Shown piece after piece: positions 2,996 to 49,956 of a stretch of DNA of 51,700 nucleotides. The notes under the pieces are model-generated. The model saw nothing but the letters and a program-made list of their open reading frames with translations, did not search any database and was not told the DNA's origin. The stretch is from Chloroflexota bacterium. GTDB lineage: Bacteria; Chloroflexota; Anaerolineae; DUEN01. The stretch spans positions 1 to 51,700 of the forward strand of contig JAADGJ010000015.1 of the NCBI GenBank assembly GCA_013152435.1, read 5' to 3'. Numbering within the stretch: the first letter of the stretch is position 1; every line of letters starts with the position of its first letter. The position numbers and the translations under genes are program-made.

Positions 2996-3270
2996 CGTCC
3001 CCGGCGGCGTATCCGGCTTCCTCCTGGGTGTCGCCGGGTGGTCATCCATCCCCCAGATCCTGCACCAATAAAGGATGCACTCTCTATCTCCCGCATTGCA
3101 CCGACCCGTAGGGTCTGCTATAATGGGCTCACCTGCGCCTGACGGGGTGCGGCTCACGGCTGATCGGGATCCTGCGGATCCCCGTGGATCGAATGCTCAC
3201 CTCGGCCCCTTATTCCTCCTCTATGAGGGGCCGCCACCGTTGTAGTTTCTCCATGGGATAGGTGTGGAAG
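2996..3270 (+). other. Era-glycerophosphodiesterase intergenic region with leader hairpins
   Basis: No gene is visible here. A GC-rich inverted repeat, CCCGGCG (about 3000) with CGCCGGG (about 3034), lies just after era and may terminate it, although no T-run follows. After the promoter at 3096-3124 the leader carries GGGATCC-TGC-GGATCCC (3166-3182) and GGCCCC (3204-3209) pairing with GGGGCC (3227-3232). These could fold in the 5' UTR of the next gene. I do not recognise a riboswitch. Confidence 0.4.
3096..3124 (+). promoter_or_regulatory. Sigma70-type promoter for the glycerophosphodiesterase gene
   Basis: TTGCAC (3096-3101) and a perfect TATAAT (3119-3124) are separated by exactly 17 bases. 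Transcription would start near 3131, giving a leader of about 140 nt. Confidence 0.75.
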
Positions 3271-4161
3271 ATGAAACGATACCTGTGGCGCCTGATCATC
3301 ATGCTCGTCGTCGTGGTGGTCGTGTTCGCCTTGTATCGCCGGTTGACCATTGGGCCTCCACCGTTGACCCCCTTCCTGGAGTCGCCCTATCCTCTCAATC
3401 TGGCCCATCGGGGCGGCGCGGCCCTGGCGCCGGAGAACACGATGGTGGCCTTTGAGCGGGCATTGGCGTTGGGAGCGGATGGCCTGGATCTGGATGTGCG
3501 CGCGTCCCGGGATGGGGAGCTGGTGGTCATCCATGACGAGACCGTGGATCGCACAACCGACGGCACCGGCCGGGTGTCTGACATGACGTTGGCCGAGCTG
3601 CAGGCGCTGGATGCGGGCTACCGATACTCCGTCGATAACGGCCAGACCTTTCCCTATCGAGGGCAGGGGGTGAAGATCCCGACATTGCGGGAGGTGTTGT
3701 CGGCTTTCCCGGATGCGCGGGTCAACATCGAGATCAAGCAGGTGGATCCGCCTATCGAGAAGGCGCTGGCGGATCTGATCCTGGAGATGGGCGCGCAGGA
3801 GCGGGTGATGGTGGTGGCCGCGGATGGCGACGTGATCGAGCGGTTCCGCCACCTGGCGCCGGATGTGGCGACGGCGGCGGCGAGGGGCGAGGTCACGTGG
3901 TTCTACTGGATGCAGCGGCTCCGGCTGGACGCCTTCTACCGCCCCACGGCCAGCGCGTTGCAGGTGCCGGAGCGGTCGGGGGATGTGGTGTTGGTGACGC
4001 CCAGGTTCGTGGAGGCCGCCCACGCCAGGGGGATGAAGGTGATCGTGTGGACGGTGAACACGCCCGATCGCATGCGGCGGCTGTTGCAGATGGGCGTCGA
4101 TGGGATCATCACCGATCGCCCAGACCTCCTGCGCCAGGTGCGGGCAGAGGTTGCCTATTAG
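3271..4161 (+). CDS. Membrane-anchored glycerophosphodiester phosphodiesterase
   Basis: This is a GDPD-family TIM barrel. The first motif is LAHRGG followed by APENT, and the second is DGLDLDVRASRDGELVVIHD with DRTTDGTG; these supply the metal-binding acidic residues and catalytic histidines. Conserved VNIEIK and the WTVNTPDRMRRLLQMGVDGIITDRP end complete the barrel. A single hydrophobic segment (LIIMLVVVVVVFALY) near the N-terminus predicts a membrane anchor with the catalytic domain outside. Family enzymes release sn-glycerol-3-phosphate from deacylated phospholipids. GTG 3262 is in frame, but ATG 3271 has AGG at a better distance and begins MKRYLWR, a normal anchor start. It is probably monocistronic from its own promoter. 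Confidence 0.88.
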   Translation: MKRYLWRLIIMLVVVVVVFALYRRLTIGPPPLTPFLESPYPLNLAHRGGAALAPENTMVAFERALALGADGLDLDVRASRDGELVVIHDETVDRTTDGTGRVSDMTLAELQALDAGYRYSVDNGQTFPYRGQGVKIPTLREVLSAFPDARVNIEIKQVDPPIEKALADLILEMGAQERVMVVAADGDVIERFRHLAPDVATAAARGEVTWFYWMQRLRLDAFYRPTASALQVPERSGDVVLVTPRFVEAAHARGMKVIVWTVNTPDRMRRLLQMGVDGIITDRPDLLRQVRAEVAY

Positions 4162-15233: not shown

Positions 15234-17264
15234 ATGACGCAACCCTTTGGTGTCGATTGGACGGGGCTCCTGTCCTTTGCCGATCTCGTTCTCGCTTCGG
15301 CCATCCTGGTCTTTACCTTCTCGCTTCTGGTTTACCTGCTGATCTACAACTGGCGCAACGGGGTGGCGCAAGGATTTGGGGCATTGCTCGCGGGCGTGGC
15401 CCTGGTCTACGCCTGTGATGTCGTCCTGCCCCGCGTGGAGACGCCACGTGCGGCCACGCTCTGGCTGCGGTTCCAGTGGCTGGGTATCAGCTTCGTCCCG
15501 GCCGCCTATCTCCACTTCTCCGATGCGCTATTGCGCACGACCAACTCCCTGTCCAACCGCCGTCGATGGCTCGTGCGGTTCAGCTATCTCCTGAGCGCCA
15601 TCCTGTGTGGGTTGGCGTTCTTCACCGATTGGATCGTGCGGGATGGCGTCTTCGCCCCGCCCATCACCCACCTGGCCCCCGGCCCACTGTTCCGGGGTTT
15701 CACCGTCTATTTCGTCCTCACGGTCCTGTACGGAGCCTATAACATCCATCGGGCTCGCGTCCGGTGTCTGACGCCGGCCTCCCGGCGGCGCATGACCTAC
15801 CTGGCTGCGGCCTTCGTCGCCCCCGCGCTGGGCGTCTTCCCGTATCTGGTCCTGGTCAGCGCGCCGGAGCCGGTCCCCTCCAGCCTGGTGCTCTCCCTCA
15901 GCCTGATCGGCAACATGGGGGTGGGGGCGATGCTGGTGCTGATGTCGTACAGCGTCGCCTATTATGGCGTGCTCACGCCCGATCGCGTGGTGAAGCATCG
16001 CCTGATCCACTACCTGCTGCGGGGGCCGGTGGTGGGATCTGCGGTCATCGTGGCCATGCTGCTGATCCCCAAGGTCGAGGCGATCCTGGGGCTGCCGCGC
16101 GACACGGTGATCGTCTTCGCCGTGATGATCGTGGTCGTTTTGGGGCAGCTTCTGGTGGACCTGGCCAAGCCGTTCATCGATCGCGTGATCTACTGGCAGG
16201 ACGAGGAGGAGATCGGGCTGATCCAGGAGCTGGATCGGCGGTTGCTGACGTCCGGCGACCTCCGTCAGTTCCTGGAGCACGTGTTGATCGCGATCTGCGA
16301 GCGGTTGCGGATCCCCTCCGGCTTCGTGGCCGTCATCCGGGACCGGGAGTTGTACCTGGAGGCCTCGTGTGGCATCGCCGAGGAGGCGCAGAAGGTGTTG
16401 GCGGCGGAGGATTGGGTGGCCGTCTTGCAATCCCTGGGCCAGCCGGGGGCGGGACGGGCCAACGATCACGGGCCTTTGCAGTGCGTCAGCCGGGCGGGGT
16501 ATTGGATCTGGCCGCTGCGCTCCAGTCAAGGCGGGCGGTTGCTGGGCCTGTTGGCCGTGCAGGCGCGCACGGAGGAGCCGCTGTTGACCGAGGAGGAGGG
16601 GCAAACGGTTGCCATGCTGCTGCGGCGCGCGGAGACAGCCCTGGAGGATCGGCAGCTGCAGCAGACGGTGTTCCTGGCGTTGCAGCGCATCATGCCGGAG
16701 CTGGAGCGTATCCAGGCGTGGCGCGGCGCGGTGCCTTACGCGGGTGGGATCGCGTTGCCTGAGGAGGATGTCCCGGCGGTGGACATGAAGGAGCTCCAGC
16801 GCTGGGTGAAGGATGCGCTCAGCCATTACTGGGGCGGGCCCAAGCTGACGCGTAGCCCCCTGCTGCGGCTGCGCGTTGTGAACCACGCGCTGGAGGAGGA
16901 GGGGGGGAATCCGGCGCGGGCGTTGCGTGCCGTGTTGACGCAGGCCATCGAACGGCTGCGGCCGCCGGGCGAGCGCCACATGACCGCGGCGGAGTGGCTG
17001 CTGTACAACATCCTGGATCTGAAGTTCATTCAGGGCATGCGGGTGCGGGAGGTGGCCCGCCGGCTGGCGATGAGCGAGTCGGACCTGTATCGCAAGCAGC
17101 GGGTGGCCATCGCCGAGGTGGCCCGGGTGCTGGCGGAGATGGAGGCCCGGGAGGCAGGGATTTCGTATGATTCCTTACAAATGCTTGACAAAGATACCCC
17201 CCCTGCCTATAATGATTATGATTTAATGGGCGGACGTTCGCCGAAGGCAAGCGAGAGTGATTGA
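15234..17264 (+). CDS. 7TM receptor-like, GAF and HTH domain membrane regulator
   Basis: The 676-residue protein begins with seven or eight hydrophobic segments (about 15-310) resembling the 7TM sensor domain of some histidine kinases. A further segment at about 260-312 leads through an amphipathic linker (IDRVIYWQDEEEIGLIQELDRR) to a GAF-like domain (about 335-470). No kinase H-box or ATPase motif follows. The C-terminal third has VREVARRLAMSESDLYRKQRVAIAEVARVL at about 603-632, a helix-turn-helix-like segment also seen in sigma-type regulators. It may be a membrane-bound one-component sensor, or signal to a partner. The last 80 bases contain a perfect promoter for downstream transcription. 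Confidence 0.6.
   Translation: MTQPFGVDWTGLLSFADLVLASAILVFTFSLLVYLLIYNWRNGVAQGFGALLAGVALVYACDVVLPRVETPRAATLWLRFQWLGISFVPAAYLHFSDALLRTTNSLSNRRRWLVRFSYLLSAILCGLAFFTDWIVRDGVFAPPITHLAPGPLFRGFTVYFVLTVLYGAYNIHRARVRCLTPASRRRMTYLAAAFVAPALGVFPYLVLVSAPEPVPSSLVLSLSLIGNMGVGAMLVLMSYSVAYYGVLTPDRVVKHRLIHYLLRGPVVGSAVIVAMLLIPKVEAILGLPRDTVIVFAVMIVVVLGQLLVDLAKPFIDRVIYWQDEEEIGLIQELDRRLLTSGDLRQFLEHVLIAICERLRIPSGFVAVIRDRELYLEASCGIAEEAQKVLAAEDWVAVLQSLGQPGAGRANDHGPLQCVSRAGYWIWPLRSSQGGRLLGLLAVQARTEEPLLTEEEGQTVAMLLRRAETALEDRQLQQTVFLALQRIMPELERIQAWRGAVPYAGGIALPEEDVPAVDMKELQRWVKDALSHYWGGPKLTRSPLLRLRVVNHALEEEGGNPARALRAVLTQAIERLRPPGERHMTAAEWLLYNILDLKFIQGMRVREVARRLAMSESDLYRKQRVAIAEVARVLAEMEAREAGISYDSLQMLDKDTPPAYNDYDLMGGRSPKASESD
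17185..17213 (+). promoter_or_regulatory. Perfect consensus sigma70 promoter inside a gene end
   Basis: TTGACA (17185-17190) and TATAAT (17208-17213) with an exact 17-base spacer lie within the last 27 codons of the 7TM-GAF gene. Transcription would begin near 17220 and cover the leader and the S1-domain gene. Confidence 0.88.
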
Positions 17265-35587: not shown

Positions 35588-36046
35588 TCGCCCATTCGCC
35601 CATTCGCTCCGTATCCTCGTGCGGATCGGGCGAGACAGCCGACAGCGGGTAGCGGTTCGCCGATAGCTTTTACAGCGCGCTGCGGCTGTTAACCCGCTCT
35701 TTTCCAGGACCAAACGGTTAGCCATTCATTTGTGGGCTCATCACTCACCCGTTTGTTCATGATCCTCGAGAGCACGAAGGAGCTCACTGCTCACTGCTAC
35801 CAGCTAACCGCTAAACAGCTCCGTATCCTCGTGCGGATCGGGTGGGATTGAAGGGAGCGAGTCAGCGAATCTGCGAGTCAGCGAGGGCACGTGAATCCTG
35901 CTCCCTCGGAAGGGAAGGGAACAGACACGAGGACAACCGCCAAGCCACCGCCGACAGCATAGAACTTCCTGAACCCAACCATTGGAAGACCGCTGATTGT
36001 GGACAACCAATGATTCGCCATTCGCCCATTCGCCCACTCGCCCACT
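35588..36046. repeat. CRISPR left flank: relic repeats joined to octad arrays
   Basis: Relic copies of the CRISPR repeat stand at 35609-35630 and 35821-35852. Each begins CTCCGTATCCTCGTGCGG rather than CTTTCAG, and carries the GATCGGG variant seen in the right half of the array. Each is preceded by a short period-7/8 array (ATTCGCCC units at 35586-35607; GCTAACC-like units at about 35780-35818). A third array of ATTCGCCC/ACTCGCCC (36013-36050) leads into the first array repeat. No gene is visible. Confidence 0.6.
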
Positions 36047-39000
36047 CGCTCCGTATCCTCGTGCGGATCGGGTGGGGTTGAAACCGAGGACCCGGAGGTT
36101 ATCCGGAAACAGATCAAACCTTTCAGTATCCTCGTGCGGATCGGATGGGGTTGAAACTCGTCGGGCTCAAGCTCCCTGATCTACTCACGATGAAACTTTC
36201 AGTATCCTCGTGCGGATCGGATGGGGTTGAAACCGCTTGGGGCGCTGGTGGCCGTGCTGACCGGCCCGGCCCTTTCAGTATCCTCGTGCGGATCGGATGG
36301 GGTTGAAACATTTGCAGAGCGGCGCCGATGATCGTCTCATCATCGCTTTCAGTATCCTCGTGCGGATCGGATGGGGTTGAAACACCCGTCGCGGCCGTAC
36401 ACACTAGACGTGAACATTGCCCTTTCAGTATCCTCGTGCGGATCGGATGGGGTTGAAACGAGTGGAATCGGAAGACGGGGGAGCCGAAGCGCTTGCGCTT
36501 TCAGTATCCTCGTGCGGATCGGATGGGGTTGAAACCTGGCATCATCATCGCACCCACCCCTTTCGCCGTCTACCCTTTCAGTATCCTCGTGCGGATCGGA
36601 TGGGGTTGAAACGCAGCTCGTATGCCAGGGATCTCACGCTCCTTATCATGCTTTCAGTATCCTCGTGCGGATCGGATGGGGTTGAAACTGCATTACGTAT
36701 GGCATTTGTTAAGGCATCACAGGCGTCTTTCAGTATCCTCGTGCGGATCGGATGGGGTTGAAACATCATCATCTTGCCCCACGCGAGTCACCAGCTCGCC
36801 TTTCAGTATCCTCGTGCGGATCGGATGGGGTTGAAACCCTATAGAGTTCCCTACTCATCTCTACCATCGTTTTGTCTTTCAGCATCCTCGTGCGGATCGG
36901 ATGGGGTTGAAACGAAGAGGTCATGATCCCCGCCCAGTTCGACATGGACCTTTCAGTATCCTCGTGCGGATCGGATGGGGTTGAAACCGTAAAGCAGTGG
37001 TATAGGGTAAGCTCACCTAATTGGCCTTTCAGTATCCTCGTGCGGATCGGATGGGGTTGAAACTATGCACTGCCGCAGCCGAAGGAGCATCGGTTCAAGA
37101 CTTTCAGTATCCTCGTGCGGATCGGATGGGGTTGAAACCCTCTTCCAACTCATCTAGCGTAGGTGGTTCGCTGAAAACTTTCAGTATCCTCGTGCGGATC
37201 GGATGGGGTTGAAACGCAAGCCGCGTCCAAATCGAGTTCGCGGCCGCCACCCACCTTTCAGTATCCTCGTGCGGATCGGATGGGGTTGAAACCATGAAGG
37301 TCAAACTATTCGCCGTGATTGAGCCCAACTCTTTCAGTATCCTCGTGCGGATCGGATGGGGTTGAAACCGCGAAACACAGCAAAACAGCGCGGCCACACA
37401 AATCGCTTTCAGTATCCTCGTGCGGATCGGATGGGGTTGAAACGTTTTCATGCTTGGCATTCAGGATGTCGGATAGCGCTTTCAGTATCCTCGTGCGGAT
37501 GGGGTTGAAACGCCGATTGACGCTGATCATGTCGGCGTCAGTGGGCCTTTCAGTATCCTCGTGCGGATCGGATGGGGTTGAAACGTAGAGGAAAGAATGT
37601 CGTTAAGAACCACGGGAGTGAGCTTTCAGTATCCTCGTGCGGATCGGATGGGGTTGAAACGACAGATGATGAAGCGCGCAGTCAATATGATACCGCCTTT
37701 CAGTATCCTCGTGCGGATCGGATGGGGTTGAAACCTTCGACGTGGCACGCAATGAGGCACGACGTCGTTTGCCTTTCAGTATCCTCGTGCGGATCGGATG
37801 GGGTTGAAACCCTTCCCCATGCCTTCGGCGCCGTCTACGCGTCTGGAACTTTCAGTATCCTCGTGCGGATCGGATGGGGTTGAAACGTTTTCATGCTTGG
37901 CATTCAGGATGTCGGATAGCGCTTTCAGTATCCTCGTGCTCGGATGGGGTTGAAACGGATCGCTCTTGAAGATCGGCGGCCAGCTCCAGGAATCCTTTCA
38001 GTATCCTCGTGCGGATCGGATGGGGTTGAAACCCTGGACATCGAGCTCATCGCCCTCTACATCCTGTGGACTTTCAGTATCCTCGTGCGGATCGGATGGG
38101 GTTGAAACCGGGATCGTGAGCAAGCCCTGCCGAAGCACGTCCCGCCTTTCAGTATCCTCGTGCGGATCGGATGGGGTTGAAACCGTGCTTCCGGTGTTCC
38201 GCTTCGTCGGCGGGATACCAGCTTTCAGTATCCTCGTGCGGATCGGATGGGGTTGAAACCAGCAAGGACCTTGCAGTCATGACGTGCCGTGTGTGCTTTC
38301 AGTATCCTCGTGCGGATCGGATGGGGTTGAAACCCCACACGGCCATACGGATCTCGGCGATCATCTCCGGCTTTCAGTATCCTCGTGCGGATCGGGTGGG
38401 GTTGAAACAGGCATGCCTCATCGTCCAGGCATTCCGCGGAGCCGCTTTCAGTATCCTCGTGCGGATCGGGTGGGGTTGAAACCAGCGTTGCGCCTCAAGG
38501 CCACGTCGGCGCAACGCGCCTTTCAGTATCCTCGTGCGGATCGGGTGGGGTTGAAACACGAACACCCTGATCAGGTTGCTAGTCGACGTGTTCGGCTTTC
38601 AGTATCCTCGTGCGGATCGGGTGGGGTTGAAACGAATGGCCGTATCGTCATGTGGGCTGACCAGGAATTCTTTCAGTATCCTCGTGCGGATCGGGTGGGG
38701 TTGAAACTACAGCCACTGTCTCTCTTCCCCTGACCATCCGGACGCTTTCAGTATCCTCGTGCGGATCGGGTGGGGTTGAAACTAGGTGAGGATTTCGCGC
38801 GACGCGCCAATTCCGCCCGGCTTTCAGTATCCTCGTGCGGATCGGGTGGGGTTGAAACCAATGAGCTTATCCCAATTAGCGGCTGGACGTGGGCCTACTT
38901 TCAGTATCCTCGTGCGGATCGGGTGGGGTTGAAACGCCGAAGGAAGAGCTGGAGCGAGAGCTCGGCCGATCCCTTTCAGTATCCTCGTGCGGATCGGGTG

Positions 39001-40421
39001 GGGTTGAAACCGGATCATCGCCAACGCTCGGGACATCCTGGAATCCCCTTTCAGTATCCTCGTGCGGATCGGGTGGGGTTGAAACGCCGATACGCCCATC
39101 ATCTGGACGTATTCTCCCAAGGCTTTCAGTATCCTCGTGCGGATCGGGTGGGGTTGAAACCCTCCGCTTCCTCTGGTGGCCTGCCAAGGACCTTCGCCCT
39201 TTCAGTATCCTCGTGCGGATCGGGTGGGGTTGAAACTCCTCAACCGTTGGCCTGGTGTTGCCCTTGAATCCCTCTTTCAGTATCCTCGTGGTGGGGTTGA
39301 AACGGCGGGCGTGGGCTCTCCAGAATGCCCGCGATTGCACTTTCAGTATCCTCGTGCGGATCGGGTGGGGTTGAAACGTCCACATACGGTGTGAGCGGGA
39401 GCATGAACCGATCTCTTTCAGTATCCTCGTGCGGATCGGGTGGGGTTGAAACCAGGAGCGGCGACATGCATACTACGAGGAGTTGAATCTTTCAGTATCC
39501 TCGTGCGGATCGGGTGGGGTTGAAACTCCTCAACCGTTGGCCTGGTGTTGCCCTTGAATCCCTCTTTCAGTATCCTCGTATCGGGTGGGGTTGAAACGTA
39601 AAGCGTGCTACGAGGATTTCGCCCTACTCGTTCTTTCAGTATCCTCGTGCGGATCGGGTGGGGTTGAAACAGCGCCGTGAGCTATGGCCTTTGCGACGTA
39701 GATCGCTCCACTTTCAGTATCCTCGTGCGGATCGGGTGGGGTTGAAACGTCTCCTTCGCTGATCCGGGCAGTAACATTACGGACTTTCAGTATCCTCGTG
39801 CGGATCGGGTGGGGTTGAAACGGACAAGGATACCTGGGGCGTCTGGGCGGATGACGCTTTCAGTATCCTCGTGCGGATCGGGTGGGGTTGAAACCATTGC
39901 GGCGCTAGTCGCCCTTTGCCCTACCCAAGCCAACCTTTCAGTATCCTCGTGCGGATCGGGTGGGGTTGAAACTCCTTTACTAGGAGCAAAGCGTAGGCTC
40001 CCCAGTCTCTTTCAGTATCCTCGTGCGGATCGGGTGGGGTTGAAACAGCGCACGAGCTGCTCGGAGCCTGCCTGCATTGACAACTTTCAGTATCCTCGTG
40101 CGGATCGGGTGGGGTTGAAACCTCTCGTGGATCAGTGGGGCAAGGTCCCGGACGTTTCCCTTTCAGTATCCTCGTGCGGATCGGGTGGGGTTGAAACTGC
40201 GCTGACGTTATCGGGGACAGTTCCGGATCTGTCCGCTTTCAGTATCCTCGTGCGGATCGGGTGGGGTTGAAACCAAGATGCGGGCTCTGCGGTCTGGGGG
40301 TAGGGCTTCGCTTTCAGTATCCTCGTGCGGATCGGGTGGGGTTGAAACGTCCAGCCATTCCGCCCTAACGTAGGCCTTGAACGCTTTCAGTATCCTCGTG
40401 CGGATCGGGTGGGGTTGAAAC
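36047..40421 (+). CRISPR. CRISPR array, 58 full-position repeats plus one degenerate end repeat
   Basis: The 38-nt repeat starts CTTTCAGTATCCTCG and ends GTTGAAAC. Repeats 1-58 begin at 36120 and end at 40421, spaced 66-78 nt, with spacers of about 35-40 nt. A degenerate repeat (36047-36084) lies just left, its 5' end replaced. Repeats 1-30 read GATCGGATGG; repeats 31-58 (from 38371) read GATCGGGTGG. Repeat 11 has C for T at position 8. Repeats 19, 25, 43 and 47 carry internal deletions of 5, 3, 8 and 4 bases. The GTTGAAAC end resembles the 8-nt 5' tag of type I/III crRNAs, so transcription is probably left to right, towards the cas genes on the opposite strand. The degenerate left repeat argues the other way. 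Confidence 0.97.
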
Positions 40422-40593: not shown

Positions 40594-41178
40594 CTATATC
40601 ACATCGTTGCAGAATCGCCGGAACTCACAGTTCACGCATTTCCCTCTCGAGCGGGGTGGATCTGGCATACGCTCGGAAGCGATCATTTCCCGCACTTCCG
40701 AGACCATCGTCCGCGCCCGAGACTTCAGTCGCGTGGTCATCCGGACCTCCTCCGCCCGCTTGGTCCGGATGGAATATAGGAAGCCTCGCCGGATGGGAGT
40801 CCAGCCATTGGCCTCCAATAGAAGCGCATATACTGCGAGCTGAACACGATGATGCTGTTGGAATCGGTTCGTATCCAATTTGTATTCTACAGGAATTATT
40901 TCACCTGTCAACTGCAGTACCAGGTCGATTCGGCCGCTTACGCCCAGGTCTGCATCTTGTACCTCTACTCGTAGATGTCGCCGCGCTTTGTCCAGCCTGT
41001 ACCGACGCAGGCTTCGCCTTACCTCGCGTAGCTCTTCCTCCTCGTGTGCGATCTTCCCTTCGATCATCAGATAAGTCTCCGGGCGGATGGAGGGCATGAA
41101 GTAGGCGTAGTAGACGATTCGAGGGCAGTACGTCCACTGCTTCAAATCGACTGCCTGCAACATCCAGGACTCGTTCAT
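40594..41178 (-). CDS. cas4: CRISPR-associated exonuclease Cas4
   Basis: The 194-residue protein has a PD-(D/E)xK nuclease core: His45 in GKIAHEEEE, Asp85 in GRIDLVLQ, Glu98 and Lys100 in PVEYKLD, and Gln113 in RVQLAVYALLLE. Four cysteines, C18 (TYCPR) and C181, C184 and C190 near the C-terminus, match the Cas4 iron-sulfur cluster. Cas4 works with Cas1-Cas2 to trim prespacers and select PAMs. ATG 41178 follows AGGAGATC and lies 14 bases after the cas2 stop. It is the last gene of the operon. Confidence 0.92.
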   Translation of the reverse strand: MNESWMLQAVDLKQWTYCPRIVYYAYFMPSIRPETYLMIEGKIAHEEEELREVRRSLRRYRLDKARRHLRVEVQDADLGVSGRIDLVLQLTGEIIPVEYKLDTNRFQQHHRVQLAVYALLLEANGWTPIRRGFLYSIRTKRAEEVRMTTRLKSRARTMVSEVREMIASERMPDPPRSRGKCVNCEFRRFCNDVI

Positions 41179-41192
41179 GAAATGATCTCCTG

Positions 41193-41450
41193 CTATTTGC
41201 GCTTCTCCTCTTGCTCGATGATGATCCGCTGCGCCCAATCCTCGTTGCAGACGTAGATCAATTGTACTTTCGCCGCCTTTCGGCCAACCTGCCTCCGGAT
41301 CCGGGCCATGAGCTCTTTCCGATATGTCTTGTTCAACTGACCGACAAAGGCGGAATATTGGATGCGATCCAGGCCATAATCCAGACACAAATCGGAGACC
41401 TTCGTGCGTATCCGATCGTCAGGGATGTCGTATACCAGCAGGCAGGGCAT
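41193..41450 (-). CDS. cas2: CRISPR-associated endoribonuclease Cas2
   Basis: The 85-residue ferredoxin-fold protein starts MPCLLVYDIPDDRIRTKVSDLCLDYGLDRIQYSAF, with the Cas2 Asp in YDI and the conserved first strand and helix. It continues LIYVCNEDWAQRII. Cas2 is the structural core of the Cas1-Cas2 spacer integrase. ATG 41450 follows GGAGG; the longer upstream frame only adds translated octad repeat and is rejected. Confidence 0.93.
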   Translation of the reverse strand: MPCLLVYDIPDDRIRTKVSDLCLDYGLDRIQYSAFVGQLNKTYRKELMARIRRQVGRKAAKVQLIYVCNEDWAQRIIIEQEEKRK

Positions 41451-41518
41451 GGAGACCTCCGAGAAGGGCAGATGGCGAGTCACGGACGGGCGCCGGATGC
41501 GGGGCGCCTCGTCGATTT

Positions 41519-41566
41519 CGCTGACTCGCTGACTCGCTGATTCGCTGACTCGCCGATTCGTTGACT
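41519..41566. repeat. Octanucleotide tandem array between cas1 and cas2
   Basis: Six 8-mers (CGCTGACT, CGCTGACT, CGCTGATT, CGCTGACT, CGCCGATT, CGTTGACT) fill most of the cas1-cas2 gap. Related units occur left of the array (GCGAGTCAGCGAATC at about 35857) and in the cas8-cas7 gap (GAATCAGCGAGTCAA at about 48436). Confidence 0.75.
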
Positions 41567-41577
41567 CACCACCCCGC

Positions 41578-42609
41578 TTACCAGCTCGCCAGGTACGGCG
41601 TGTATGTCTCCCGCTCACCTCGCAGATAGGTAGCCAGGTGACGGGCTTGGGTTTGCAGAATGGCCCCCAGCTTGTGGCGTTTCCCTTCGTACCGCTCGGG
41701 GCGGTCCAGGCGGTCCAATACCCGCTCGGCGATCATCCGGCGCGTCTCTTGTGTGAGGAATCCTTGGTCGTCCGTCTCAATGCCCATGCCCCGGTTGACG
41801 ATGCTCAATATGGTCCGGTCTACGACCGGTGCTCGGAATTCCTCGATCAGGTCCAGCACCAGGCTGGGTTTGCCCGGCCGATCGACATGGAGGAACCCGG
41901 CGTATGGCTCCAGACCGGCCAGCAGGATCGCCCGCTCGACCTGGCCGTAGAGCACGCCATATCCGTAGTTCAACGCCATGTTGATCGGATCTTTGGCGCC
42001 TCGCCCCCGACGTCCGGGCCAGTCCATCTGATCTCGGAGGAGTAGGCGGATGGCGGCCCAATATTTCTGCGCGGCCCGCCCCTCGGCCGACAGCAACTGG
42101 AAGCGCACGTCGTCCACACGGCTGCCTTGGGCTTGCTCCACCTCTGCCAGATGATCCAGCGTTTCGCTGGCCAGCAGTTGGAGCTCCTGGTAGAGATCGG
42201 GATCCTTTTCCTTTCGATATTTGGCGGCGTAGCGGATCAAGCGGGCTTGATTCTCGATCTTACCGGTGGCGAACGCCCGGGCGAGGTGCAGGCCGCGAGC
42301 GTCGTGGTAGGCCAGCATCTGGGAGCGGCGAGTTTGCACGGTTCCCACCAGCCCGACGGAGACCAGGGAGGCGTAGGGGGTTCCCCGGCTGCTCATGAAG
42401 TGGATGGGGATGCCGGCCTCGGCACAGGCGCGTACGGCATCCGCGCTGATGCTCACCCCGTTGGAGCCGATGAGGACCTGCTCCAGGTGGATGAGCGGCG
42501 CCTGCGTCAGTTTCTCCCCCGTCTTCAGTCGCTCGACCTGAAGGCGGCCGGAGTGCTTGCGGATGAAAGTGCCAAACTCGTCAACGATCAGATGTCGGAT
42601 GATGGGCAT
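41578..42609 (-). CDS. cas1: CRISPR-associated integrase Cas1
   Basis: The 343-residue protein has the N-terminal beta domain (LIVDEFGTFIRKHSGRLQVER...VLIGSNGVSIS) and the helical catalytic domain with Glu176 in LLSAEGRAAQKYW, His241 in GFLHVDRPGKPSLVLDL and the acidic DLIEEFRAPVVD (about 253-264). Cas1 with Cas2 inserts new spacers. Length and sequence fit type I-B Cas1. ATG 42609 follows GGAGG. The gap to the next gene upstream is a heptad repeat array. Confidence 0.95.
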   Translation of the reverse strand: MPIIRHLIVDEFGTFIRKHSGRLQVERLKTGEKLTQAPLIHLEQVLIGSNGVSISADAVRACAEAGIPIHFMSSRGTPYASLVSVGLVGTVQTRRSQMLAYHDARGLHLARAFATGKIENQARLIRYAAKYRKEKDPDLYQELQLLASETLDHLAEVEQAQGSRVDDVRFQLLSAEGRAAQKYWAAIRLLLRDQMDWPGRRGRGAKDPINMALNYGYGVLYGQVERAILLAGLEPYAGFLHVDRPGKPSLVLDLIEEFRAPVVDRTILSIVNRGMGIETDDQGFLTQETRRMIAERVLDRLDRPERYEGKRHKLGAILQTQARHLATYLRGERETYTPYLASW

Positions 42610-42622
42610 GGTGTCCTCCGGA

Positions 42623-42664
42623 CAGCAGGTAGCCGATAGCCGGCAGCAGGTAGCGGTTAGCGCT
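42623..42664. repeat. Heptanucleotide array, cas1-proximal side of the four-helix-bundle gene
   Basis: Units CAGCAGG, TAGCCGA, TAGCCGG, CAGCAGG, TAGCGGT and TAGCGCT run in register. They overlap the stop of the four-helix-bundle gene. CAGCAGGTAGC here is inverted relative to GCTACCTGCTG at 43049-43059. Confidence 0.65.
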
Positions 42665-43031
42665 TGCCGGTGATCGTGGCCAGGAGGCCGAAAAGCATTT
42701 TCGTAATCTCTTGTAGCTCATCCTGAAGGGGCTGATAATCTTCGGGTTGGAGATATCCCACATCCAGAGCGATATCGAGCTGCGTACTGAGTTCTGCGGC
42801 TGAGCCAAGGGCTATATTGATGTGATTGGCGAGCACTTTATCCGACCGTCTTACATGCCCTTCCGCGATGTTAGAGGGGATTGAGATCGCAGCGCGCCGA
42901 ACCTGACCAGTTAGGCCATATTGCTCACGCCGAGGGAAGGACTCCGTGATGCGATAGATCTCTACAGCTAGAGCTTTCGCCCGCTGCCACACTTCTAGAT
43001 CACGATAACTTCTAATCCTCCTGTTGCGCAT
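42657..43031 (-). CDS. Four-helix-bundle protein (23S rRNA intervening-sequence/Avd-like)
   Basis: The 124-residue protein has the four-helix-bundle signature SYRDLEVWQRAKALAVEIYRITESFPRREQYGLTGQVRRAAISIPSNIAEGHVRRS, then AELSTQLDIALDVGYLQPEDYQPLQDELQEITKMLFGLL. Relatives occur in intervening sequences of 23S rRNA, near diversity-generating retroelements (Avd), and as stand-alone genes; they bind nucleic acid or protein through a positively charged pentameric surface. It lies between cas6 and cas1, where no Cas protein of this kind is expected, and is bracketed by inverted heptad repeats. That suggests an inserted cassette. Its link to CRISPR function is unknown. Confidence 0.85.
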   Translation of the reverse strand: MRNRRIRSYRDLEVWQRAKALAVEIYRITESFPRREQYGLTGQVRRAAISIPSNIAEGHVRRSDKVLANHINIALGSAAELSTQLDIALDVGYLQPEDYQPLQDELQEITKMLFGLLATITGKR

Positions 43032-43048
43032 TGATCCCCCCTCTCCTT

Positions 43049-43090
43049 GCTACCTGCTGGCAGCTAACTGCTAACCGCTAACCGCTAACC
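43049..43090. repeat. Heptanucleotide array, cas6-proximal side of the four-helix-bundle gene
   Basis: Units GCTACCT, GCTGGCA, GCTAACT and three perfect GCTAACC. The cas6 stop codon and last few codons fall inside it. Confidence 0.75.
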
Positions 43091-44076
43091 TCGTACCACC
43101 CGTCCCCCTTCACCGCGTTCTTTCCCACGTGGGTCAGGGTGCCCCAGATGAGCCACGGGAGGAGGGGGGCCCAGTCTTTCGTCATGTAGGTGGCATATCC
43201 CATAAATCCGCCGATGGGGGTGGATCGCCCTGTGCGGGAGGAGTGGCTAGACAGGTCGACCCACACGGTGTCCTCGCAGATCAGCTCCACGTGCTCCGCT
43301 GCCTCCAGGGTTGGCTTCACGTCGATCTCGCCGATGTCGCCATACTCACGGGCCAGCCCCTCGATTCGGTCCACCAACCGGCCGAAGAGGGGGCGGAACA
43401 GCGGACGGCGGATCCGTTGGCGACCTCGTGCGATGATGCGGGTGGGGGTCAGGAAGTGCAAGCGCACTCTGCCGTTGATTCGGGCGAGCATGCGGTCCGC
43501 CGCCTCCTGGATATCGGCTGTGGCCACGGGGAGGGTCGGGATCTGCACGGTGGATCCCCCCTCGCCCATGAGAAGCTGCTCTTCCCCGGTGAGCGGGTGG
43601 ATGCACCGGATGTTGACCAGGGTGAAGCGTCCCCGGTGGCCCTTGTTTTGTGGCAGTCGTCGTCCCGCGCCGACGCGTCCCATCTCCGGGATGGCCAGGA
43701 TCAGGTAGGGGAGCAGGTTCACGGCCGTGCCGAAGAGGGTGATGCCGAAGGTGAACGTCTCGCCCGGCCGATAGTGGAAGGGCGGGCGGCCGTTGTGGGG
43801 ATCGGGCAATGGCGGCTCAATGGTGTAGGGGCGCACAGGGGTGTTGCCGCGCCACCAGCCTGCGTCCTCGCGGGCCAGGAGCCAGCAGACGGGGCATATG
43901 GCGGAGTGGCCGGGATCGGGATCGTCCGGCGCCGGGCAGTAGTGGTGGCGCAGGACGCCGAAAAGGGCGCCGCGCAGTTGCCCGCCCGGCTGGCGGCCGA
44001 AGGCGATGTGCGTTTGCGCTCGCACCTCGATGCACAGATGGTGGCTGGTGAGCTGGGGAAGCCCACAGGTCGTCAT
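43078..44076 (-). CDS. cas6: CRISPR pre-crRNA endoribonuclease Cas6
   Basis: The 332-residue RAMP protein has an N-terminal SHHLCIEVRAQTHIAFGRQPGGQLRGALFGVL and a middle segment with C-P-V-C (SAICPVCWLL). The C-terminal RAMP signature is GGFMGYATYMTKDWAPLLPWLIWGTLTHVGKNAVKGDGWYEV. Cas6 cuts repeats to leave the 8-nt tag, here probably GUUGAAAC. His residues near the N-terminus are candidate catalytic residues. The last codons (GTT AGC GGT TAG) come from the heptad array, so the natural end may have been altered. AGGAGG precedes the ATG. Confidence 0.85.
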   Translation of the reverse strand: MTTCGLPQLTSHHLCIEVRAQTHIAFGRQPGGQLRGALFGVLRHHYCPAPDDPDPGHSAICPVCWLLAREDAGWWRGNTPVRPYTIEPPLPDPHNGRPPFHYRPGETFTFGITLFGTAVNLLPYLILAIPEMGRVGAGRRLPQNKGHRGRFTLVNIRCIHPLTGEEQLLMGEGGSTVQIPTLPVATADIQEAADRMLARINGRVRLHFLTPTRIIARGRQRIRRPLFRPLFGRLVDRIEGLAREYGDIGEIDVKPTLEAAEHVELICEDTVWVDLSSHSSRTGRSTPIGGFMGYATYMTKDWAPLLPWLIWGTLTHVGKNAVKGDGWYEVSG

Positions 44077-44188
44077 GGTATCCTCCTGTCGGATCGGGTT
44101 GTGTGTGGCGTGAAGCGTAGCGCGTGGAGCATCTGGTGTGCTATGTGTTCCATGTCCTGGATCTTATGAGGCGTGACAGTAATGCTGT

Positions 44189-46576
44189 TTATAACCACTC
44201 TTCCTCATTCTCGGGTTCTCGTTCTGGGTCCAGGCCGATCTCTGAGTCGTAGTAGGCCTCTACGATGGGGGGAAGTCCATCGCCAGCCGGGCGGATGCGT
44301 CCTTCGTTGGCCAAGGCGTGGTAGCGTCCCCAGCTGATGGGAACCAGCAGTTGGCTGGCAGCCAGGGGATCGTCGTCCTCCAAGTGCGCCTCGTAGGCGT
44401 CCACGAGCCCTTGAGGCAGGACTTCCAGCCCATCGAAGAGCTTGTAGAAAGCATCCTCTAAGGCCGGATCGCTTCGGAAGGGATGTAACTGGTCCAAGGA
44501 TATTCGCCTGAACTCCCCGGCCGCTTGGACGTACTGCTGTTCCCATTGAAGCAGGACGTCTCCGGTGTACGTCTCGTCCAACCACGTCTGGACCAGCCCT
44601 TCGTTCAGCGATCGTCCCGCCGCTTCGCGCGTCAGGATGTCCAGCGCGGCCTGTACCATCGCCGGATCATAGATATGCTGCCCATCGTCTGGTAGCTCGA
44701 AGATGTGCACCGGAGCTAGGGGCATGCGGCGGCCCCGGTTGACGCGCCCGAATCGTTGCACCAGTGCCTCCAGGGGGGCTGGATCGGTGAAGATGGTGTC
44801 TAGGTCGATGTTCAGGCTGACCTCGACTACTTGGGTGGATACCACCAGCACCGGACGTTTTGGGTGTTGATGAAGAGCCGTTGCCTCCAGGATCCCTTGC
44901 TCCTTGACCAGTCGGTCGCGAGCGTTGAAGCGACCGTGGATCAGGATAATGTCCTCCGGTCGTGTTTGCGGAAGGCGGTCGATCAGGGCCTGGTGGGCAG
45001 CCTGGGCGCGAGCTACCGTGTTGCACGTGACTAGCACGGATCGTCCCGCCTGAAATGTCTCCACGATGGCATCCAGCCCGTGGTCGTCCAGCAATTCACC
45101 AGGTAGGATGCGCACCTGGTGTCGGGTGAACATCTGGAAGAGCGAGGGCGCCGCCGAGATCCGGATAGGATCCCCCAACGCCTGGGCCACCCGCTGACGC
45201 ACCGGAGCGGGCAGCGTGGCGGACATCACGAGGAATCGGGCGCCCAGATGCTCACGCAGGTAGGCTACCGTCTCCAAGATCAGCGCCAGGCGTTTCGGCT
45301 CGTAAGCGTGAATCTCGTCGAAGATGAAGGCCGCCTGGGCGTAGTTTGCCCACATCGTCTCGTATCCCTTGAGCTGGTAGGCGGCTTTGAGCATCTGGTA
45401 CGGGCTGAACACCTGGATCGGTGGTACGTAAAGCCGCACCAGGTCCCTGGTCGTGCGCGCCAGCCGGGTCGATTCTTGCGGCGTGTATCCCTGGTCCATG
45501 TACCGACGGTATAACGCCAGCATTGCCCGACCGTGCAGCAGGCCAACATGACCAGCGAAGGAACGGTGCAGGCGATCATACATGGCGTTCATGCTGGCCT
45601 GGTAGGGTAGCGTATAGAAGAGTCGAGGGATTTCGCCTCGGGATTCCGCCTGACGGGCCGCCCAGAGGAGCGCTGCCTCCGTTTTGCCGCTGCCTGTGGG
45701 AGCGACCAATAGGGCGGAGCCCTCTGTGGATGCCGCCCTCCGTTGGTGCTCGTAGAGTTGTTCCATGCCGATGTCGGCGGCGGCGAGAACGCTCTGTCGG
45801 ACGATGGGGGCAGGTTTGAACGTTCCGGCGTGAGCTGAGGCCGTGTGATCGGCCTGCACCAGATACCCTCGCAGGAGAATGCCCATCAGCCGCCGTGGGA
45901 TGTCGGGATCCCAGCTCAGATCATCCACCAGACGGAGGCATCGATCGAGCCAGCGGGAAGTGATGGATGCGCCATATTCCAGCACGTGGGCTGTGGCCTC
46001 GTCACCGGGCGGGGGGTGTGGAAGGCTCACGCCGAATCGATCCATGCCTAACTCCGCCACCCACGCCGGGGCGATCTCTGTCAGCCAGAGCCACAGACCA
46101 TATACCGTCGTCTCGTCCAGTTCCTGGACCAATCCGACGAAGGGATCATCTTCCTCGTCTAGATCTGTGGGGTAGAGCGATTCGATCTCCGCCAGGTCTT
46201 TGTGGTGTGAGGCGATGCTGGCCGCCAGCCAGATGGCCTCCTCCTCTTCCCAGTCGGCGGAGATCCAGTCCACAAAAGCCAGAGAGAGGACCTCATGCCG
46301 GTGGGGCCATCTCCTTGCTTTCCCACGGAGCACGGCCTGGAAGCTGTGGGTGGCCTTCCCCCAATCGTGCAGGAAGGCCGTCCAGAAGAGCAGGTGCCAC
46401 AGGTTGGGCCGGGAGATCTCGTCCGGTAGGCCGGGGCGTAGGCGGGCAAGCTCCGCCAATCTGGAGAGGATCTCCCACGTGTGCTCCGCCAGTGTTTCTC
46501 CCGAAGTTTCCCCTGACTTCGGGCTCTTGGCCCAGATGGAGTCCAGCCAGTCAGGCCATGCGGACGATGCTCTCAT
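44189..46576 (-). CDS. cas3: CRISPR-associated helicase-nuclease Cas3
   Basis: The 795-residue protein has an N-terminal HD nuclease: H32 (AEHTWEI), H70-D71 (FLHDWGKA), HRHEVLS and ASHHKDL. The SF2 helicase part has Walker A VAPTGSGKTEAALLWA, DEIH in FIFDEIHAYEPKRL, MSATLPAPVRQRV, and the later VVSTQVVEVSLNIDLDTIFTDPAPLEALVQRFGRVNRGR. Cas3 unwinds and degrades DNA bound by Cascade. HD and helicase fused in one chain is usual for type I-B. It overlaps cas5 by 26 bases. The 112-base gap to cas6 has GCGTGAAGCGTAGCGCGTGG, a loosely repetitive stretch. Confidence 0.95.
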   Translation of the reverse strand: MRASSAWPDWLDSIWAKSPKSGETSGETLAEHTWEILSRLAELARLRPGLPDEISRPNLWHLLFWTAFLHDWGKATHSFQAVLRGKARRWPHRHEVLSLAFVDWISADWEEEEAIWLAASIASHHKDLAEIESLYPTDLDEEDDPFVGLVQELDETTVYGLWLWLTEIAPAWVAELGMDRFGVSLPHPPPGDEATAHVLEYGASITSRWLDRCLRLVDDLSWDPDIPRRLMGILLRGYLVQADHTASAHAGTFKPAPIVRQSVLAAADIGMEQLYEHQRRAASTEGSALLVAPTGSGKTEAALLWAARQAESRGEIPRLFYTLPYQASMNAMYDRLHRSFAGHVGLLHGRAMLALYRRYMDQGYTPQESTRLARTTRDLVRLYVPPIQVFSPYQMLKAAYQLKGYETMWANYAQAAFIFDEIHAYEPKRLALILETVAYLREHLGARFLVMSATLPAPVRQRVAQALGDPIRISAAPSLFQMFTRHQVRILPGELLDDHGLDAIVETFQAGRSVLVTCNTVARAQAAHQALIDRLPQTRPEDIILIHGRFNARDRLVKEQGILEATALHQHPKRPVLVVSTQVVEVSLNIDLDTIFTDPAPLEALVQRFGRVNRGRRMPLAPVHIFELPDDGQHIYDPAMVQAALDILTREAAGRSLNEGLVQTWLDETYTGDVLLQWEQQYVQAAGEFRRISLDQLHPFRSDPALEDAFYKLFDGLEVLPQGLVDAYEAHLEDDDPLAASQLLVPISWGRYHALANEGRIRPAGDGLPPIVEAYYDSEIGLDPEREPENEEEWL

Positions 46577-47294
46577 CTTCTCCCACCCACGAGTGAAACG
46601 CCAGTCCCAGCTTGTCTCCTTTCACTTCCTCCGACGTGGGATCGACCCAGAAGGAAAGAGGGTCCTCGCCGGCGAAGCGGAGGAAATCGTGGCTGTGGAC
46701 ACGTCGGTGGATGACCACGTAGCGACCGAATGTGGGAAACCGATTCCGGGAGTAGTCCAGGAATCGGGGCATCAACACCACGAAACCCGATGCCGTCCGC
46801 CTGGCGAAGGAGTAGGGTGCCAGTGTATGCTCGAAGTAAGCGTGGTCAGCCCGCTCCAGCTCCACGATCTCGACATCCGTGTACGTGAACAGATCCTGGG
46901 ATCGCCCCAGGGCCACCGGGTAACGAGGGTGACGAAAGGCCTCAGCCCATTCGGGTTTGTTGACATAAAGCATCATTTTGGGCTTGAAAAGCAGGCCCCG
47001 GCGGAAAGGGGCTACTTTGCCCTCGTTCACTTTGGGCAGATTAGTGCCGGGCAACTTCCCAGCCGCGGGCGTCAAGACATGGGTGTGCTCGATGTCCTCG
47101 AACTTCGCCTGGTAGGTGAAGTGTAGGGCGAATTGGACGCCGTCCGGATCAAACCATTTCCCCAGGACGCTGCATATATGCCCGTAGATGGTGGCCGGCG
47201 GCGGCATCTCGAAGGTCGGCTGAACTTCTTGCATGAAGTGTGGATAGCGGAAGGAGGTGATGAGCCCTTCCGCCGTGATTTTCAAGACCCGCAT
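46551..47294 (-). CDS. cas5: Cascade subunit Cas5
   Basis: The 247-residue RAMP protein opens MRVLKITAEGLITSFRYPHFMQEVQPTFEMPPPATIYGHICSVLG, the Cas5 N-terminal pattern with its RxxP...PPxTT-like element. It later shows PFRRGLLFKPKMMLYV and YTDVEIVELERADHAYFEHTLAPYS. In type I-B, Cas5 caps the 5' tag of crRNA and anchors Cas8. Similar to the Cst-type (Tneap) Cas5. AGGAGG precedes the ATG. Confidence 0.9.
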   Translation of the reverse strand: MRVLKITAEGLITSFRYPHFMQEVQPTFEMPPPATIYGHICSVLGKWFDPDGVQFALHFTYQAKFEDIEHTHVLTPAAGKLPGTNLPKVNEGKVAPFRRGLLFKPKMMLYVNKPEWAEAFRHPRYPVALGRSQDLFTYTDVEIVELERADHAYFEHTLAPYSFARRTASGFVVLMPRFLDYSRNRFPTFGRYVVIHRRVHSHDFLRFAGEDPLSFWVDPTSEEVKGDKLGLAFHSWVGEDESIVRMA

Positions 47295-47325
47295 GGTGAG
47301 CCTCCTGTCTGAGGTAGCGAGGAGG

Positions 47326-48414
47326 TCACGCTAGCCACGACTTGTGTTCGGCGCTTTTCAGCTTTTCCGCCAGGGCCAGGAAGGCCTCCCTCGGATGCAT
47401 GATGTGGATGCGATCGGCCCAGGCTGCAAGATCCCTACCTTCTGCCAGGGCTTCCTCGAATCGCTCGCGCTCCTCGTCCAGGTATCCACGCACCCAGCCG
47501 ACGTAGATGTCGGAGAGGATATCGTCCTGGAAGACTCCCAACGCCTGTTTCAGGGCGTCGATCTTCACCATCGGGCGGTTTTTGGCATCGGCGCCGATCA
47601 CGTGCCCGAAGATGTGGTTGCCGCCCCGGGTCACGGCCGCAAAGGCGAGCACCGGGCTCACGTCGGTATAGTGAAGCGTCTGCTTAGCGCCGCCTTCCAG
47701 ATGGGCTAAGCCCTCCAGCAGAGCGGTGATGCGCTGAACGCGCTCTTCGGCGGGAAGCCGGAAGGCCTTTTCGTCCTTCAGGTGCTCCAGACCCTTTTCC
47801 TCGGCCATCTTCTTGCGCGCGTCGTCCAGATTCAGAAAGCCGGTCTTGCTGTGGTAGGTGAAAGTCCCGGCGGCGTGCAGGTCCAGGGAGAAGAGCCCTT
47901 TTAGCGTCGCCCGATAGAACTGATGCTCGTGGGGAACGGGGTCCCCTTCGTGTCGAGACATGACGCCGAAATCGTCCACCACCGGAGCCGGTGCGATGGA
48001 GACCAGCGTACTCACCCGAAAGGGAGAGACACGGGTGATGGTCTCCGCCGTGGGAGTCTCCATAGCTCGGCTCTCATCCGCCTCTCGTGCTGCCACAGCG
48101 GACGCTTTCTTGGAGGGCGCGCGCATGTAGCCGAAGAGGTCGTCGTCCCAGTACAGGATAGGGTTGCCATCGGTATAGGCGACCTTCTGTTCCCGGAAGA
48201 TGGGGGCCGCTCGCCAGCCCCAGGGGCCGTTCTCCAGCGTTCGGCGCAGCCAGTAGCGGAAAGCTTGCGCGGAGACATAGGGATAGGCGCCCTCCCGGGT
48301 TCGAATCATCTTGACGCCGACGGTATTGTCCGTGCGCGCTCCAGGGATCTGTCCCAGGTTGTTCAATGCGGACGCAGGCGCGTCGATCAGAAACATGCCG
48401 GTCAGGAAAGCCAT
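47326..48414 (-). CDS. cas7: Cascade backbone subunit Cas7 (Cst2/DevR type)
   Basis: The 362-residue protein begins MAFLTGMFLIDAPASALNNLGQIPGARTDNTVGVKMIRTREGAYPYVSAQAFRYWLR, the Cst2/DevR signature. It continues with SPFRVSTLVSIAPAPVVDDFGVMSRHEGDPVPHEHQFYRATLKGLFSLDL and a C-terminal helical part. Several copies coat the spacer part of crRNA in Cascade. GAGGAGG precedes the ATG. Confidence 0.93.
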   Translation of the reverse strand: MAFLTGMFLIDAPASALNNLGQIPGARTDNTVGVKMIRTREGAYPYVSAQAFRYWLRRTLENGPWGWRAAPIFREQKVAYTDGNPILYWDDDLFGYMRAPSKKASAVAAREADESRAMETPTAETITRVSPFRVSTLVSIAPAPVVDDFGVMSRHEGDPVPHEHQFYRATLKGLFSLDLHAAGTFTYHSKTGFLNLDDARKKMAEEKGLEHLKDEKAFRLPAEERVQRITALLEGLAHLEGGAKQTLHYTDVSPVLAFAAVTRGGNHIFGHVIGADAKNRPMVKIDALKQALGVFQDDILSDIYVGWVRGYLDEERERFEEALAEGRDLAAWADRIHIMHPREAFLALAEKLKSAEHKSWLA

Positions 48415-48489
48415 CGGTGACCTCCTCGAAGAGTGAATCAGCGAGTCAATGGGTTGTGCGTTGGTGAATCCACGATGAAGGTGTTTGTC

Positions 48490-49956
48490 CTATTCAGCTT
48501 CCGGTTCCGACGTCTCTTCCGGCAGCACATCCGCGTGGGCCTTGAGCCATCCGCGATTGTACAGCTGTTCGATCATGCGGATGAGTACCAGGTCCCGGGC
48601 CAGGCTCCAGTCGCTGTAGGGCAGGTCCTCCCCCTCTTCGAAGATCGTGATGAATTGATCGAAGGTGATGAGGGGCGGCTTGCCCTGCTTGACCTGAGCG
48701 GCGCTCGCTTTGATAAGCGCCGTTCGCAGGTATTCGTATCGCCCGACAGTGAGGAAGGCTCGGAAGAACCGTCGGTCGTTCTCCTGATCGACGTACTCGG
48801 CCAGCGTATCGCCGAGCTCTCGAATCCGTTCAATCCGCTCTCTGTCCATGTGCATCACCTTTCTCAGGAAGAGATCGAGCATGCTCCAAGATACCAGGTC
48901 GGCTTCTTCTCGCAGAGAGTACCCAGATCGTGGATCTCCCTTGCGCACGTTTCGCTGCGGGATGCGGAGGAAGTAAGTTCGAATGAAGAATCGGGCGTTC
49001 TCCGGTAGACGGAGAAGGTCTTCGTAGAAGACGTTGTAGCGTGGCTCCGGCGTGACGGGCGACTCTCCTTTTCGTCTACGCCTGGCTTGAGTGATCTCCC
49101 ACCCGCGATGTACGAGCCTGTTCCATGTTTCTCGGTAGTTGGTAGCCGTGGCCGTCCGGATGAAGTCCAGGGTTTCCATGGGCAGATGGTAGATGTCGAG
49201 GTCAACGCCCTGGCCGCTGTTGGAGAAATGATAAGCGGTTACGGATGCCGGGGTATCTTCCCTCGCTGCTTGAGCTCGTTCTCTTTCCAGCTTGATCAGG
49301 GTCTCGATGAAGAGCGTGGCGGTGCGGTGAGGCGCCTCGGGCAGTTTCTTCTCGCCCGCGTCGCGGGCGAGTTGAATGGCTCGTAAATTGTGTTGCAAGA
49401 ACTCCCAAGCGAAGCGGTAAGTGATCTCCGGATCATCGGAATGCACGGCCAGTAGCCTGCCCTGGGACTTGGCGCATCCCAGGGGCAGAGCTTGTAGCGC
49501 CAGGAGTGCTTCGCCCGATACGGGCAGTCCTGCATCGCCGTAGGGAAAGAAATTGATGACGCCTTCGCCGGTGATGAGGGGAATGTGCTGACGATAGGTT
49601 CTACCCGGTGGGAGCTTGCCTTTGACGTCCAGGGGAATGCCCGCGGCCGGTTTGCCCGTGAAGATGCCGGGTATGTTCAGTTTCGGTGCATCGGGACGGT
49701 AGGCTCCCAAGACTCGCTCGGCGTAGATCTCTCGCTTTTCCGGGGCCTTGTTGTAGGCGGGCTGCGTGAAGCCGGAGTTGGGAAACGCCACCGTCAGAAA
49801 TGATTTCAGCGGATCGACGACGTAGTTCTCCCTCATGTACACCGCGATCGCATCGAGGTCCGCCTCGGTGAGCTGTGTAGGGTCTCGCTTGTGGGCAAAG
49901 GCGGCGATGGTCGCTATGCCCACGTCTACCAGGGGATGGCCCGTGTATTCCAGCAT
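48490..49956 (-). CDS. cas8b1: Cascade large subunit Cas8b (Cst1 type)
   Basis: The 488-residue protein starts MLEYTGHPLVDVGIATIAAFAHKRDPTQLTEADLDAIAVYMRENYVVDPLKSFLTVAFPNSGFTQPAYN, typical of Cst1 (type I-B, Tneap group). GEGVINFFPYGDAGLPVSGEALLALQALPLGCAKSQGRLLAVHS follows; Cst1 often has zinc-binding cysteines in this part, but here only one Cys is seen. The large subunit recognises the PAM and recruits Cas3. First gene of the operon; AGGAGACAAC precedes the ATG. Confidence 0.85.
   Translation of the reverse strand: MLEYTGHPLVDVGIATIAAFAHKRDPTQLTEADLDAIAVYMRENYVVDPLKSFLTVAFPNSGFTQPAYNKAPEKREIYAERVLGAYRPDAPKLNIPGIFTGKPAAGIPLDVKGKLPPGRTYRQHIPLITGEGVINFFPYGDAGLPVSGEALLALQALPLGCAKSQGRLLAVHSDDPEITYRFAWEFLQHNLRAIQLARDAGEKKLPEAPHRTATLFIETLIKLERERAQAAREDTPASVTAYHFSNSGQGVDLDIYHLPMETLDFIRTATATNYRETWNRLVHRGWEITQARRRRKGESPVTPEPRYNVFYEDLLRLPENARFFIRTYFLRIPQRNVRKGDPRSGYSLREEADLVSWSMLDLFLRKVMHMDRERIERIRELGDTLAEYVDQENDRRFFRAFLTVGRYEYLRTALIKASAAQVKQGKPPLITFDQFITIFEEGEDLPYSDWSLARDLVLIRMIEQLYNRGWLKAHADVLPEETSEPEAE

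Follow-up and report, generated by a model that had tools for sequence, protein, structure and literature searches.

In type I-B CRISPR-Cas systems of the Cst/DevR subgroup, cas4, cas1, cas2, cas6, cas3, cas5, cas7 (Cst2/DevR) and cas8b1 (Cst1) adjoin the array; the same set adjoins the array described here, which in comparison with this subgroup displays no oddity relevant to its shortened repeats. A further feature, the recurrence of a spacer within a single array, is shared with other CRISPR arrays of the class, in which identical spacers were found 1 to 28 units apart (20 stretches from 16 genomes), and duplicated spacers as such are therefore ordinary. The neighbouring repeats in those arrays are, unlike the ones described below, of full length, indicating that neither a biological process nor an artefact that shortens repeats recurs there. 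On a single long contig of a related genome (L049), an array at 3187-4100 contains duplicated spacers that are identical or near-identical and lie next to each other; the repeats beside them occur in several sequence variants. A third point of comparison is the local assembly error at a collapsed repeat (PMC7111523), which is characterised by perfect overlaps of contig ends that equal the k-mer size, by wrong bases, missing bases or Ns at the joins and by broken reading frames. Perfect overlaps of scaffold ends often correspond to the largest k (IDBA-UD) or to k-1 (metaSPAdes), and such errors are suspected to feature prominently in assemblies made with IDBA-UD (PMC7111523). The locus reported here shares these features and differs in that the collapsed unit would be a duplicated spacer together with its two flanking repeats, leaving a scar that mimics an internally deleted repeat. 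No relevant publication emerged from a literature search on repeats that are shortened beside duplicated spacers.

The window, that is, the whole stretch of 51,700 nucleotides analysed here, is contig C15 of a 4.97-Mb draft that comprises 149 contigs. Its array was parsed by script (Table 1). The type I-B gene set beside it was recognised by NCBIfam and Pfam matches (Cas8b, Cas7 (Cst2/DevR), Cas5b, Cas3, Cas6 and adaptation genes), with the match of Cas5b lying below the curated cut-off. An 8-base tandem repeat (TCGCTGAC-like) is located at 41509-41580, close to the start of cas2, and a gene encoding a four-helix-bundle protein (TIGR02436, 23S rRNA insert/Avd-like family) is placed at 42657-43031, between cas1 and cas6. 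The 38-nt repeat reads CTTTCAGTATCCTCGTGCGGATCGGATGGGGTTGAAAC in the left half of the array, and CGGGTGGGG replaces CGGATGGGG in the right half; this switch, a single base change at position 38371, marks the separation of the older from the newer half of the array. The left end of the array carries degenerate repeats, and its right flank is similar to the corresponding flank of a second array (contig C105), which fits a leader common to both arrays. Because the cas operon and this leader-like flank lie on the right and the degenerate repeats on the left, transcription of the array most likely proceeds from the minus strand.

Table 1 Coordinates of the array, its duplicated spacers, shortened repeats and exact matches, and the adjoining cas genes (positions in the window).
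Feature	Position	Strand	Remark
CRISPR array, 59 repeats	36049-40421	- (probable transcription strand)	script parse of the window
Array repeat, 38 nt			CTTTCAGTATCCTCGTGCGGATCGGRTGGGGTTGAAAC (+ strand spelling)
Duplicated spacer 1, copy a (spacer 19), 35 nt	37444-37478		array parse
Duplicated spacer 1, copy b (spacer 25), 35 nt	37887-37921		array parse
Duplicated spacer 2, copy a (spacer 43), 37 nt	39237-39273		array parse
Duplicated spacer 2, copy b (spacer 47), 37 nt	39527-39563		array parse
Repeat 20, 33 nt, minus 5 (CGGAT)	37479-37511		left break fits 90-95 bases of the shared block, 91 included
Repeat 26, 35 nt, minus 3 (GGA)	37922-37956		left break exactly 91
Repeat 44, 30 nt, minus 8	39274-39303		left break 91 or 92
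Repeat 48, 34 nt, minus 4 (GCGG)	39564-39597		left break exactly 91
91-bp exact match, pair 1, copy 1	37406-37496		repeat + spacer + 18 bases of next repeat
91-bp exact match, pair 1, copy 2	37849-37939
91-bp exact match, pair 2, copy 1	39199-39289		repeat + spacer + 16 bases
91-bp exact match, pair 2, copy 2	39489-39579
Type I-B cas genes: cas4, cas2, cas1, cas6, cas3, cas5, cas7 (Cst2/DevR), cas8b1 (Cst1)	40594-49956	-	NCBIfam + Pfam matches
cas2	41193-41618	-	NCBIfam/Pfam
cas6	43078-44076	-	NCBIfam/Pfam

Related elements occur elsewhere in the draft. Lone CRISPR-repeat-like sequences outside the array (window 35607-35640 and 35819-35852; contig C87, 154-258 and 458-491) sit in a partly conserved intergenic sequence present on the contig of the window and on C87. 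The second array, on C105 (1-408), has the same repeat ending in GAAGC and is cut by the contig edge, while a further array on C58 (1-2050) has an unrelated ATTGAAAC repeat; no duplicated spacers were reported in the parsed stretches of these two. A DNA search of 60 relatives retrieved no copy of the array itself, and a Cas1 scan of genome contigs gave three distant relatives only, from Caldilineales/Caldilineae MAGs.

An earlier note on this DNA had pointed out two identical spacer pairs, with an internally shortened repeat beside each of the four copies. Both pairs were recovered exactly in the array parse, which yielded no further identical pair among the spacers of the array, and the four repeats measure 33, 35, 30 and 34 nt in place of 38, as the note had reported (minus 5, 3, 8 and 4). 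Its statement that all other repeats are of full length also holds: when the four are set aside, 54 of the remaining 55 have 38 nt, the exception being the outermost left repeat (36049-36084; 36 nt), which is divergent at its left end. We likewise agree that a coincidence of four out of four is not due to chance. That the shortened repeat comes after each copy is true of the printed strand; if the array is read from the minus strand, as is probable, each duplicated spacer is preceded by its shortened repeat.

The draft carries a signature of the word length with which it was assembled. Exact terminal matches to another place were observed at many of the 148 contig ends tested, with a length of 91 bp at 35 ends and of 90 bp at seven, and none of the 148 had a terminal match longer than 91 bp. 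In a survey of stretches of the draft, 2.07 Mb in all, the longest exact repeat was 92 bp (two cases), and exact repeats of 89-91 bp were found almost exclusively at contig ends or adjoining N runs, which occur with variable length within the contigs. Since overlaps of 91 bp recur at contig ends and no exact repeat exceeds 92 bp, the sequence points to a de Bruijn assembly from short reads with a largest k-mer of about 91. The draft, with 4.0% contamination, is likely to be a metagenome bin.

The same number recurs at the shortened repeats. Identity between the two copies ends at exactly 91 bp in both spacer pairs and, counted from the start of the shared block, the bases kept before the four deletions have one value in common, 91 (Table 1). 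Random placement of the same deletions gives such a common break with a frequency of 1.3e-5 if they may fall anywhere in the repeat, and of 3.5e-4 if they are confined to its middle. Within the repeat, the break lies at position 18 where the spacer has 35 nt and at position 16 where it has 37 nt; this shift equals the difference in spacer length, and a process acting on the repeat would hold its position in the repeat, suggesting that the break is set by the word length. Together, these observations indicate with near certainty that the four shortened repeats are not biological and represent small joining errors of a short-read assembly with 91-base words, made at spacers that occur twice. With intact repeats, the expected shared block is 38 + 35 + 38 + 1 = 112 bp for the first pair and 114 bp for the second, both longer than 91. 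Duplicated copies sharing blocks of this length with their flanking repeats would collapse in the assembly graph, each pair thereby breaking the array into pieces. The left-hand piece would keep exactly 91 bases of the shared block, and at the first copy of pair 1 it probably ends with the 91-bp match at 37406-37496. A scaffolder would then link the two pieces, relying on read pairs to estimate the overlap or gap between them, and a misjudged overlap would remove 3 to 8 bases too many. If both pieces hold 91 bases of the shared block, their true overlap in the array would amount to 70 or 68 bases, as against the 75, 73, 76 and 72 that the joins would then have used. The true repeats would accordingly have 38 nt at all four sites.

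Comparable scars were observed in ordinary genes of the draft. A c-type cytochrome gene with tandem haem domains on contig C18 (L099, 15508-16314) is frameshifted twice; two of its domains contain an identical 92-bp stretch (15649-15740 and 15968-16059), directly past which the frame is lost in both copies, and from there on the copies are again homologous to each other. On contig C115 (L176), a tandem-repeat gene of the VCBS-like kind has two segments that match over 92 bp (1269-1360 and 1414-1505); past this match one copy lacks 8 bases, and the gene is frameshifted. A second frame change is found near 1690 in this gene region (900-2000) and may have the same cause as the 8-base deletion. 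A 91-bp match on contig C72 (L192) leads into Ns in one of its copies; the other copy continues into a duplicated stretch, that is, an insertion-type join. Deletions, insertions and Ns at one kind of site would be expected from joins made through misjudged overlaps. The earlier note had left the choice between a biological process and wrong assembly joins; the 91-bp signature and its replication outside CRISPR strongly favour the latter.

Biological accounts of the shortened repeats were weighed against the same observations. Bases in the adjoining repeat could be deleted when the duplicated spacers recombine or when strands slip between them, or during repair after self-cleavage. All four shortened repeats do adjoin duplicated spacers, and direct CGGAT copies flank one deletion, as would suit slippage. 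Microhomology, however, is absent at two of the four breakpoints and limited to a single base at another; the breaks keep a fixed distance of 91 bases to the start of the shared block, not a position in the repeat, 91 is also the assembly k-mer throughout the draft, ordinary genes show the same scars, and repeats beside duplicated spacers are intact in other arrays. We therefore regard deletion by such a process as very improbable. According to a second account, the two spacers would be harmful through self-targeting, and selection would have inactivated their crRNAs by damage to the leader-side repeat, separately for each copy. In its favour, if the array is read from the minus strand, every duplicated spacer has immediately upstream of it a shortened repeat that touches the hairpin region. 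Matching of the spacers to the host genome and phages had been proposed in the earlier note. Within the 4.97-Mb genome, neither spacer has a match with up to 3 mismatches other than its two array copies, which speaks against self-targeting. No protospacers were found in viral contigs with exact core patterns of both spacers, or in phages by a distant search. By eye, at least two of the four repeats could also still form a short ATCC/GGAT stem, and the exact 91-bp breakpoints are left unexplained, making this account extremely improbable. We assign an equally slight chance to a real mechanism that trims the repeat beside spacers occurring twice, such as error-prone repair where the copies have formed recombination intermediates, in which case the agreement with 91 would be a coincidence. 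A process is thus unsupported, because the breakpoints track the word length of the assembly and not the repeat and because neither spacer matches elsewhere in the genome.

A separate question is whether each cell has both copies of the spacers. The duplicates might be false, with one copy of each spacer per cell and two strain variants of the array merged in the assembly, given that in a contaminated draft that is likely a metagenome bin a mixture of strains can provide one spacer with two neighbours. This is unlikely, since one 91-mer spans the last base of the preceding spacer, a full repeat, the duplicated spacer and part of the next repeat; if k was 91, both left neighbours would be directly supported by k-mers. 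Identical duplicated spacers are, moreover, present in complete or near-complete genomes of the class. As single 91-mers tie each copy to its left neighbour, the duplications are probably true, with full-length repeats behind both copies. The earlier note had predicted that an artefact would reveal itself by a single copy of each spacer; under joining errors of the kind proposed here this is not the expected outcome, both copies probably being real.

Joining errors at duplicated spacers call for caution with draft metagenome assemblies, in which shortened repeats beside duplicated spacers can originate in this way, and a match between the copies that ends at exactly the k-mer of the assembly is the sign by which such joins can be recognised. 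Other drafts of the class carry duplicated spacers with full-length repeats, indicating that the error is specific to this assembly and not general. In this draft, genes with internal repeats are broken by the same error; a frameshift in one of its tandem-repeat genes is therefore not to be taken as evidence of a pseudogene, and the c-type cytochrome gene is most likely intact in nature.
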